A stretch of DNA of 64,000 bases, taken from the NCBI GenBank assembly GCA_017792405.1, contig CP051231.1, forward strand, positions 1,342,011 through 1,406,010, given 5' to 3'. Below the pieces are notes generated by a model. It did not search any database and was not told the origin of the DNA. It saw only the letters and a list, made by a program, of their open reading frames with translations. Each line of letters starts with the position of its first letter. Positions within the stretch are counted from its first letter, which is position 1. The stretch comes from Oceanicola sp. (lineage in GTDB: Bacteria > Pseudomonadota > Alphaproteobacteria > Rhodobacterales > Rhodobacteraceae). The translations under genes and the position numbers were made by a program. Shown here piece by piece: positions 17,304 to 20,487 of this stretch.

Positions 17304-17332
17304 TTGGCAGGGGCCGGGCGGGCTGCTACTGA
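17304..17332 (+). promoter_or_regulatory. predicted sigma-70 promoter of the cysS operon
   Basis: TTGGCA (17304-17309), a 17-base spacer and TACTGA (17327-17332) form a good housekeeping-type promoter. The ATG of the leader peptide begins 7 bases after the -10 box, close to the expected +1, so the leader would be translated from a leaderless or nearly leaderless transcript. Confidence 0.55.
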
Positions 17333-17338
17333 CAGCTC

Positions 17339-17383
17339 ATGACCCGCGCCGCGACCATCATCATTTGCTGCATTACCTGCTGA
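17339..17383 (+). CDS. Ile/Thr/Cys-rich leader peptide upstream of cysS-cimA
   Basis: A 14-codon frame encodes MTRAATIIICCITC followed by TGA. Ten of the 13 residues after Met are Ile (4), Cys (3) or Thr (3), with TGC TGC ATT ACC TGC as its last five sense codons. The operon it precedes encodes cysteinyl-tRNA synthetase and citramalate synthase (first step of threonine-independent isoleucine synthesis). A ribosome slowed at these codons would cover the left arm of the hairpin that starts 10 bases after the stop. The match of codon content to downstream functions is the evidence; no data exist for it. Confidence 0.6.
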   Translation: MTRAATIIICCITC

Positions 17384-17392
17384 CATCAGTCA

Positions 17393-17441
17393 CGCGGGCC
17401 CGGTCTCTTTTCACGAAACGATGAAGTTGCTAAAGCCCGCG
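17393..17441 (+). promoter_or_regulatory. candidate attenuator hairpin before cysS
   Basis: CGCGGGC (17393-17399) can pair perfectly with GCCCGCG (17435-17441), which ends 10 bases before the GAGGAG ribosome binding site of cysS. An alternative small hairpin, CGGG (17440-17443) with CCCG (17448-17451), shares bases with the right arm and touches the ribosome binding site, so the two are mutually exclusive. There is no T-run, which suits control of translation rather than termination. Confidence 0.4.
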
Positions 17442-17461
17442 GGGACGCCCGAGGAGCCTTC

Positions 17462-18859
17462 ATGGACATTCATCTGCACAATACGAAAACCCGGAAGAAA
17501 GAGCTTCTGACCCCTGTCACGCCGGGGCGGGTGGGCATGTATGTTTGTGGGCCGACGGTCTATGACCGGGCGCATATCGGCAATGCCCGCCCCGTGATCG
17601 TGTTCGATGTGCTCTACCGCCTGCTGCGCCATGCCTATGGGGCCGAGAACGTGACCTATGTGCGCAACTTCACAGACGTGGATGACAAGATCATCGCGCG
17701 GGCGGAGGAGAGCGGGCGAGAGATCGGGCACATCACGGCCGAGACCACTGAGTGGTATCTGGAGGATATGGCGGCGGTCGGGGCGCTGGAGCCGAACGAG
17801 ATGCCCCGCGCGACCGAGTGGATCGGCGCGATGGTGGAGATGATCGAGGGGCTGATTTCGGGCGGCCATGCCTATGCGGCGGAGGGGCATGTGCTGTTCC
17901 GGGTGCGGAGCTATGAGGCCTATGGCGCGCTGTCGGGCCGCTCGGTGGACGACATGATCGCCGGGGCGCGGGTCGAGGTGGCTCCTTACAAGGAAGACCC
18001 GATGGACTTTGTGCTCTGGAAGCCCGCGAAGGCGGGCGAGCCAGGGTGGGACTCGCCATGGGGCAAGGGACGGCCCGGCTGGCACATTGAGTGCTCGGCG
18101 ATGGCGGACGCGCTGCTGGGGGAGTCCTTCGACATTCACGGCGGCGGGAATGACCTGATGTTCCCGCACCACGAGAACGAGATCGCGCAAAGCAAATGCG
18201 CCCATCCTGAGGGCGACTTTGCCCGGATCTGGATGCACAACGAGATGCTTCAGGTCGAGGGAAAGAAAATGTCCAAGAGTCTGGGGAATTTCTTTACGGT
18301 CAGGGACTTGCTGGATCAGGGTGTGCCGGGCGAGGTGATCCGCTTCGTGTTTTTGGGCACACATTATCGCAAGCCGATGGACTGGACGGAGAAGAAGCGG
18401 GGCGAAGCGGAGGCGACGCTGCGGAAATGGCGGGCGCTGGTGGCGGGTGTTGAGCCGGGCGAGGTTCCGGAAGGTGTAATCGCAGCTTTGGCCGATGACC
18501 TAAACACTCCAAGCGTCATTACTGAAATGCACCGACTGGCAGCTGACGGCGACGTTGCTGGCTTGCTGGCAGCCGGGCATATCATCGGCGTTCTCACCGA
18601 AGAACTTGGCGGTTGGGAGCAACCGCGATTTGTCGAGCATCTTGGACTCGAAACTGCGATGAATGAGGGTTATGCAACTTGGATCGACAACCTGATCAAG
18701 AAGCGAACCAACGCGAAGTCCGCGAAAAGGTTCTCTGAGGCGGACCGTATACGCGACGGTTTGAATGAAGCTGGGATCATCCTGAAAGACGGACCGACAG
18801 GAACCGAGTGGGAATTCGGCGCAGATGTGGACATATCCAAGTTGGAGGCCTTGAAATGA
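17462..18859 (+). CDS. cysS: cysteinyl-tRNA synthetase
   Basis: The 465-residue class I synthetase charges tRNA-Cys. It has the zinc ligand Cys29 in YVCGPTVYD, the HIGH-type motif HIGN (residues 38-41), the second zinc cluster around WHIECSAMA and [11 protein letters not shown], and KMSKS near residue 270. The C-terminal part from about 18481 to 18840 is much less GC-rich (about 54% by hand count against about 67% just before) with different codon choice, though the frame and family length are intact. Its last bases overlap cimA as ATGA. Confidence 0.97.
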
Positions 18860-20487
18860 CCGAACGCCTCTACCTCTACGACACCACCCTGCGCGACGGG
18901 CAGCAAACCCAAGGCGTTCAGTTTTCACTCGACGAGAAGCAGGAGATTGCTTCGCTGCTCGACGGGTTGGGCGTCGATCATATCGAGGGCGGGTGGCCGG
19001 GGGCGAACCCGACCGATAGCGCCTTCTTCGAAGCCAAGCCGAAACTTCGCGCCACCTTCACCGCCTTCGGCATGACCAAGCGGGCCGGGCGCAGCGCGGA
19101 GAATGACGAAGTGCTGGCGGGCGTGCTCAACGCCGGCACGCCCTCGGTTTGCCTTGTCGGCAAGACCCATGACTTCCACGTGACCGACGCCCTCGAAATC
19201 ACGCTCGAGGAAAACGTGGAGAACATCCGCGCCTCGGTGGCGCATATCGTGGCGCAGGGCCGCGAGGCCCTGTTTGATGCCGAGCATTTCTTCGATGGCT
19301 ACAAGGCCAACCCTGAGTATGCGCTGAGCTGCCTCAAGGCTGCGCTCGACGCGGGCGCGCGCTGGGTCGTGCTCTGCGACACAAACGGGGGCACTTTGCC
19401 CGGAGAGATTTACGAAATCGTAAAGGCCGTGATCGACGGCGGCATTCCGGGCGACCATCTGGGTATTCACACCCATAACGACACCGGAAATGCGGTGGCG
19501 GGCAGCCTTGCGGCGGTGGACGCAGGCGCGCGGCAGATTCAGGGCACGCTGAACGGGCTGGGGGAGCGTTGCGGAAATGCGAGCCTGACCACGCTGATCC
19601 CGATCCTGCTGCTGAAGGAGCCGTACCGGAGCCAGTACACGACCGGCGTGACGGCGGAGGGCTTGGCCCGGATGACGCTGATCAGCCGCAAGCTGGATGA
19701 CATCCTCAACCGCGTGCCGATGCGAGCTGCGCCCTTTGTGGGGGCCTCGGCCTTTGCGCATAAGGCCGGGCTGCATGCCAGCGCGATCCTTAAGAACCCG
19801 GCGACCTATGAGCACATAGAGCCGGAACTGGTGGGCAATGCGCGGGTCATCCCGATGAGCAATCAGGCCGGCACCTCGAACCTGCGCAAGCGGCTGGCGG
19901 AGGCCGGGCTGGAGGCGGAGAAGGAGCAGCTGGCGGCGATCCTGAACACGATCAAGGAGCGGGAAAGCCAAGGATTCTCGTATGATACCGCGCAGGCAAG
20001 CTTCGAGATTCTGGCCCGCCGCGAGCTGGGGCTTCTACCCGATTTCTTCGACGTGGAGCGCTACCGGGTGATCTCGGAGCGCCGCCGCAACGCCAAGGGG
20101 CAGATCGTGGTGGAGAGCGAGGCCGTGGTGGCCGTGAGCCTGCCGGGTGGCGGGCTGACGACCAACTACTTCAAGAACGAGCACCCTGAGGAGATGCAGG
20201 ACGCAGGCCCGGTTCACGCCCTGTGGAACGCGCTGATTGCCGATCTGGGGCCTTACGCGGGCCGTCTGGAAGGCATGCGGCTGGTGGACTTCAAAGTGCG
20301 GATCACCAATGGCGGCACCAAGGCCGTGACCCGCGTGATCATCGACAGCGAGGACGGCGCCGGGCGGCGCTGGAGCACTGTGGGGGTGAGCGCGAACATC
20401 GTGGACGCCAGCTTTGGTGCCTTGATCGACGCGGTGACGTGGAAATTGGTGCAGACCGGATCGGAGCTGCGTAAAGTAGGGGAATGA
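18856..20487 (+). CDS. cimA: (R)-citramalate synthase
   Basis: The 543-residue enzyme belongs to the LeuA/CimA family and condenses pyruvate with acetyl-CoA to citramalate, opening a threonine-independent route to isoleucine. The N-terminal motif [17 protein letters not shown], metal-binding HTHND and [11 protein letters not shown] are present, and the length of about 540 with a C-terminal regulatory LeuA-dimer domain fits CimA rather than the shorter homocitrate enzymes. The ATG at 18856 overlaps the cysS stop, so it is translationally coupled to cysS and probably under the same leader. Confidence 0.93.

Follow-up and report, generated by a model that had tools for sequence, protein, structure and literature searches.

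A conserved isoleucine- and cysteine-rich leader frame upstream of cysS-cimA in Rhodobacteraceae as a probable two-signal attenuator

Results

The window, i.e. the whole stretch of 64,000 nucleotides that was analysed, is part of a complete 4.3 Mb Rhodobacteraceae genome. The leader region studied here is flanked by an opposite-strand gene and by cysS, the start of which is 78 bases past the leader frame. CysS matched TIGR00435 with 456.6 bits (cut-off 340) and CimA matched TIGR00977 with 568.8 bits (cut-off 450), and cimA starts at 18856 with an ATG that forms ATGA together with the stop of cysS, which ends at 18859. The ATGA-coupled cysS-cimA operon described in an earlier reading of the letters alone (the sequence-only reading) was thus borne out, with both gene families confirmed. 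The features are:

17304-17309, + strand: -35 element TTGGCA of promoter P1 (TTGNC with a 16-18 base spacer, 146/167 leaders)
17327-17332, + strand: -10 element TACTGA of P1, in the conserved context GCTA, placed by its spacing to the leader ATG
17339-17383, + strand: leader-peptide frame MTRAATIIICCITC, predicted to be leaderless, stop TGA, compared in 167 distinct relatives
17357-17365 and 17372-17374, + strand: leader Ile codons, read from the frame
17366-17371 and 17378-17380, + strand: leader Cys codons, read from the frame
17376-17384, + strand: segment 1 (CCTGCTGAC), last codon and stop, pairs with segment 2
17389-17399, + strand: segment 2 (GTCACGCGGGC), common to both competing helices (covariation 1:2 and 2:3)
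17400-17412, + strand: C/U-rich stretch 3' of segment 2, the terminator U-run in the reading of a 2021 paper
17408-17413, + strand: probable P2 -35 element, TTTTCA
17431-17436, + strand: probable P2 -10 element, TAAAGC, spacer 17
17435-17441, + strand: segment 3 (GCCCGCG), partner of segment 2 (helix 2:3 covariation)
17443-17456, + strand: segment 4 and Shine-Dalgarno sequence (SD; GAGGAG, 17451-17456), which may pair with segment 3
17462-18859, + strand: cysS, cysteine-tRNA ligase (cysteinyl-tRNA synthetase), TIGR00435 above cut-off
18856-20487, + strand: cimA, citramalate synthase, TIGR00977 above cut-off, ATGA overlap with the cysS stop

The leader frame and its distribution

The frame at 17339-17383 encodes M T R A A T I I I C C I T C stop in 14 codons, with tandem Cys (CC) at codons 10-11. 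Ten of the 13 residues after Met are Ile, Cys or Thr, in agreement with the sequence-only reading. A covariance model (R1, from the leader end through segment 3) matched the element in 162 of the 199 Rhodobacteraceae genera in a set with one genome per genus, nearly always once per genome; one second match (G131:C2, L156) lies in or near unrelated genes and was set aside as chance. When R1 was run on 289 genomes drawn from the class, the matches were five family members and a single out-of-family site (G051, L261) in an unrelated gene, again taken as chance, and in 17 other alphaproteobacterial families the region upstream of cysS showed no comparable leader. The relatives' frame upstream of cysS is mostly 13-14 codons long, ending some tens of bases upstream of cysS (examples are MKSICIICCIIPC, MNGSCIIIGCCIITC and MKQNAAICCICIIC). 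The leader frame is real and strongly conserved. At one locus, in a Neomegalonema MAG (L086, the 300 bases before cysS), the distance from leader to cysS is 172 bases, with an inserted long inverted repeat, GAGTGAAACTCGA ... TCGAGTTTCAC, that looks like a small mobile element.

Conservation of the Ile and Cys codons in relatives had been proposed earlier as a check on the reading, and among the 167 distinct leaders the content is kept. Residues after Met are Ile in 28.8%, Cys in 21.1% and Thr in 15.1%, compared with 4.2%, 0.9% and 4.8%, respectively, in CysS from the same loci; no residue is more frequent in the leaders than Ile, and few are Val, Leu, Phe or Met. Numbered back from the stop codon, codon -3 is Ile in 155/167 leaders, codon -4 encodes Cys in 123 leaders and Ile in 35 (either one in 158/167), and codon -5 encodes Cys in 114 leaders and Ile in 37 (either one in 151/167), while Ile occupies codon -7 in 108/167 and codon -8 in 92/167. 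The number of Cys (1-5 per leader) and Ile (1-6) and their order vary, and upstream of codon -9 there is free variation. The enrichment of Thr is mild, is seen mostly close to the start and at codon -2 (Ile and Pro being the alternatives there) and has no fixed position in the 167 leaders; Thr as a further signal was therefore rejected. The frame is enriched in codons for the amino acids related to the operon, Ile and Cys, as in ribosome-mediated attenuators.

Base-level constraints bear on some of these codons. In 145/167 leaders the final codon reads TGC, CGC or GGC, and because the helix described below also demands one of these triplets there, a Cys at this place says little in favour of a Cys signal. 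Of the leader Ile codons 57% are ATT, compared with 21% in cysS, despite the GC-rich genomes, and ATT is nearly fixed at codon -3 (146 of the 155 Ile codons), so that part of the signal at this position may lie in the bases and not in the amino acid. On the CysS tree, 52 synonymous changes were inferred at Ile codons between positions -9 and -3; 94 apparent Ile-Cys exchanges were also counted, these being partly block sliding and not clean substitutions. The number of Ile codons showed no correlation with the cysS-cimA gap.

Promoters and probable leaderless start

P1 in the window resembles a sigma-70 promoter, with TTGGCA, a 17-base spacer, TACTGA and 6 bases to the ATG at 17339; the elements and spacer of the sequence-only reading were recovered, and its gap of 7 bases was corrected to 6. 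The pattern TTGNC-N17-GCTA is present for 146/167 leaders, compared with 4% of control ATGs, and for 133 of the 146 the distance from the T of the P1 TA to the leader ATG is 12-13 bases, which makes the ATG the expected transcript start. SD-like 4-mers precede 10/167 leaders as opposed to 130/167 cysS starts. The leaderless start that had been proposed is supported by the P1 geometry, according to which the P1 transcript would begin at or beside the leader ATG. A second pattern, TTTYCA-N17-TTGCTAAGCCCG, lies inside the loop of helix 2:3 in 117/167 and is retained in several loci without the leader; it is probably an internal cysS promoter (P2). A simple promoter and terminator scan found nothing at the locus, its rules not fitting this clade.

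Competing RNA helices

Helix 1:2 pairs 17376-17384 with 17389-17398 and includes the stop codon (hairpin -12.2 kcal/mol, z -3.9), whereas the leader and 1:2 of the window folded together reached a z of only -0.9. Helix 2:3 joins CGCGGGC (17393-17399) to GCCCGCG (17435-17441), which lies ahead of the SD GAGGAG. Since segment 2 is common to both, the two helices cannot coexist. The sequence-only reading had placed a hairpin near the leader stop, with its right arm by the cysS ribosome site, and a competing hairpin that overlaps this arm; both were recovered, CGCGGGC starting at the 10th base after the stop and segment 2 serving 1:2 as well as 2:3. In 128 sequences of the family the mean z was -2.7 for 1:2, -2.5 for 2:3 and -0.4 for 3:4. 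On the CysS tree, covariation was found for 1:2 at s+3 x g-5 (coinciding changes on 22 branches, of which 13 gave a complementary pair, p 6e-10) and for 2:3 at g-1 x h+6 (20 branches, 16 complementary, 7.4 expected, p 6e-7), with p values that ignore unequal branch lengths, and g-1 x h+6 stands out against all other segment 3 columns. Repeats of the form GCGGGC-N-GCCCGC are not above chance in the window (5 found, 3.3 expected), and the case for the helices rests on conservation and covariation.

Helix 3:4 is predicted at -12.7 kcal/mol in the window and covaries weakly in the family, and the predicted access to the SD barely shifts between the two states (0.39 to 0.44). With the family z of -0.4 for 3:4, masking of the SD by this helix is weakly supported as the main output; in the window genome such masking is possible on the folding model.

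Association with cimA

At all loci with an Ile/Cys leader and enough downstream sequence, cimA directly follows cysS (156/156), which supports the tie between leader and operon that had been read from the window. At 10 further leader loci the contig ends before the next gene can be read, and four genomes that seemed to have the leader without cimA (G139, G174, G195 and G307) proved apparent only, with contigs that end early. The leader is dispensable, as 22 loci have cysS-cimA and no detectable leader. The 21 loci without cimA next to cysS never have an Ile-rich leader: 17 have no leader, one (L243) has a decayed frame without Ile, MTKQPASAQSFCSRR, and three have Cys-only leaders. Leader and adjacent cimA are associated with p about 4e-14 in a Fisher test (156, 22, 0, 17), in which related genera are not independent. 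The gene itself is present in 379/396 genomes of the family, and solo cimA genes had no such leader in the three genomes examined.

The Cys-only leaders, MDWICCLCRA and MEWICCPC, come from three species of a single genus (L112, L236 and L237). In two of these genomes (G130 and G234) cimA was not found, and in the third (G233) it was absent from the 1.5 kb after cysS. Their own CGCG-rich hairpins replace the usual arms. Conversely, a divergent cysS-cimA locus (L233) with cimA adjacent has an Ile-only leader, MNAPNRIIGIIIGG. At another cysS locus without adjacent cimA (L106), segment 2 and the C/U run are kept about 110 bases before cysS and the leader frame is lost, as if the leader had recently decayed.

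Discussion

There is little doubt that the element corresponds to the uORFC-8-2 motif (RNA Biol 2021, PMC8632094), of which that paper gives 145 examples, all upstream of Rhodobacterales cysS, and describes an upstream frame with tandem Cys codons, a hairpin and a C/U run, with Cys attenuation of cysS proposed and the 1:2 hairpin with the following U-run taken as an intrinsic terminator. The position upstream of cysS in Rhodobacterales and the AUG-started frame with conserved tandem Cys codons are alike in both. Of the two-stem feature, in which the first stem holds the Cys codons, the second stem in the window (1:2) has a z of -3.9, and the leader with 1:2 has -0.9; of the U-run feature, UCUCUUUU is present, and the terminator scan gave no call there. 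The tandem Cys is usually at residues 14-15 in the published description, compared with 10-11 here, and uORFC-8-2 was described as Cys-only, whereas Ile and Cys are found here. The sequence-only reading held that a combined leader would be new: the leader had been published in 2021 with Cys alone, but the text of PMC8632094 mentions neither isoleucine nor cimA nor citramalate. Nor does the available part of it describe a leaderless promoter, helix 2:3 or an inner promoter for the motif. No Rfam 15 family matched the element at E up to 1, and searches weighted towards literature outside subscription found no other paper naming uORFC-8-2, no described leader with both Cys and Ile codons and no study of mapped transcript starts in roseobacters. 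What appears to be new here is the Ile signal with its tie to cimA, the predicted leaderless promoter, and the competing helix together with the probable second promoter in its loop.

Leaderless polycysteine sORFs of mycobacteria are reported to act as Cys-responsive attenuators (Canestrari et al. 2020, as cited in PMC9031893), and related actinobacterial regions lack conserved hairpins (PMC1262725). The element resembles these sORFs in its predicted leaderless frame, in Cys codons near the stop and in the operon downstream. In contrast, the mycobacterial sORFs have Cys only, precede cys biosynthesis operons and belong to another phylum, whereas Ile outnumbers Cys in the leaders here.

In enteric bacteria thrL (Thr, Ile) and ilvL (Ile, Val, Leu) are multivalent attenuators with SD-led leaders and strong terminators, and the amino acids sensed share one pathway. 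As in these, one leader would serve more than one amino acid here, but Cys and Ile serve two unrelated gene functions within one operon.

We consider that the element is quite probably a two-signal (Cys and Ile) ribosome-mediated attenuator of cysS-cimA, as had been proposed with Thr included: the predicted leaderless leader, the Ile and Cys codons, the tie to cimA and the shared-arm helices argue for it, and the Thr signal has been dropped. The frame with its codon content, the promoter geometry, both helices and the cimA tie are read from the compared sequences, and we infer stalling, from geometry, as well as the identity of the 'on' state and the output step. The P1 transcript would start at or beside the leader ATG, where 70S ribosomes would initiate with no need of an SD. 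When tRNA-Cys and tRNA-Ile are both charged, translation would proceed to the stop and the ribosome would leave, 1:2 would form and expression from P1 would be low. A shortage of either charged tRNA would make the ribosome wait at Cys -4, Cys -5 or Ile -3 and cover segment 1, leaving segment 2 free for segment 3, and cysS-cimA would be expressed. The output step may be premature termination of transcription in the C/U-rich stretch or occlusion of the ribosome site of cysS. As stalling on either tRNA would suffice, a single 45-base frame would jointly raise the Cys charging enzyme and the enzyme at the entry to the pyruvate route to Ile. Since a Cys tRNA-charging enzyme and an Ile biosynthetic enzyme are combined in the operon, it is on balance likely that one leader senses two unrelated tRNAs and that over evolution its codon content follows the genes of the operon, Ile codons going with cimA.

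A variant with the same two signals and a purely transcriptional output, in which 1:2 and the C/U-rich run form an intrinsic terminator and 2:3 is a minor mRNA structure, has a substantial if lesser chance of being right. The strong 1:2 helix agrees with it, as do the 10 bases that follow the GCGGGC arm, with roughly 48% T in 128 sequences, and the run is so viewed in PMC8632094. However, the run is interrupted by C and begins 3-6 bases past the stem, the terminator scan was negative, and a terminator alone does not explain 2:3, since this helix covaries independently and lies beyond the proposed stop site. It is unlikely that the published account is complete, i.e. that the element attenuates cysS through Cys only, with Ile codons as loosely structured filler and cimA as a passenger. 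The near-fixed ATT at codon -3 would fit this view, and Cys codons are regulatory in the mycobacterial leaderless sORFs (as cited in PMC9031893). Against it, Ile-poor leaders are found just where cimA is missing, so that the device does not need Ile; Ile is more frequent than any other leader residue (28.8%, compared with 4.2% in CysS), few leader residues are Val, Leu, Phe or Met, and one leader has Ile and no Cys.

That the peptide itself acts, by nascent-chain arrest, by metal or thiol sensing through the Cys pair or as a small trans-acting peptide, seems very improbable. Cys-Cys pairs are common in the leaders and trans-acting leader peptides exist (peTrpL, PMC7298713), but the free variation before codon -9 and the variable number and order of Cys (1-5) and Ile (1-6) speak against it, and the tie to two enzymes fits tRNA charging. 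A chance frame in a GC-rich intergenic region is already refuted by a place and codon content fixed across 162 genera, even though the bare GCGGGC/GCCCGC pair does arise by chance in the window.

If the two-signal reading is true, attenuator leaders can combine the signals of unrelated pathways, and leader codons could be read as a record of the genes that an operon serves. It would also correct the Cys-only reading of a motif found across a very large family and provide citramalate synthase with a regulator that can be tested. A Cys-Ile link is suggested by E. coli, in which too much cysteine inhibits threonine deaminase and leads to isoleucine starvation (Harris 1981, as cited in PMC5376351), with citramalate synthase bypassing the step so blocked.

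The probable P2 would supply a basal, leader-free transcript. Its start region is GC-rich, which could mean stringent control.
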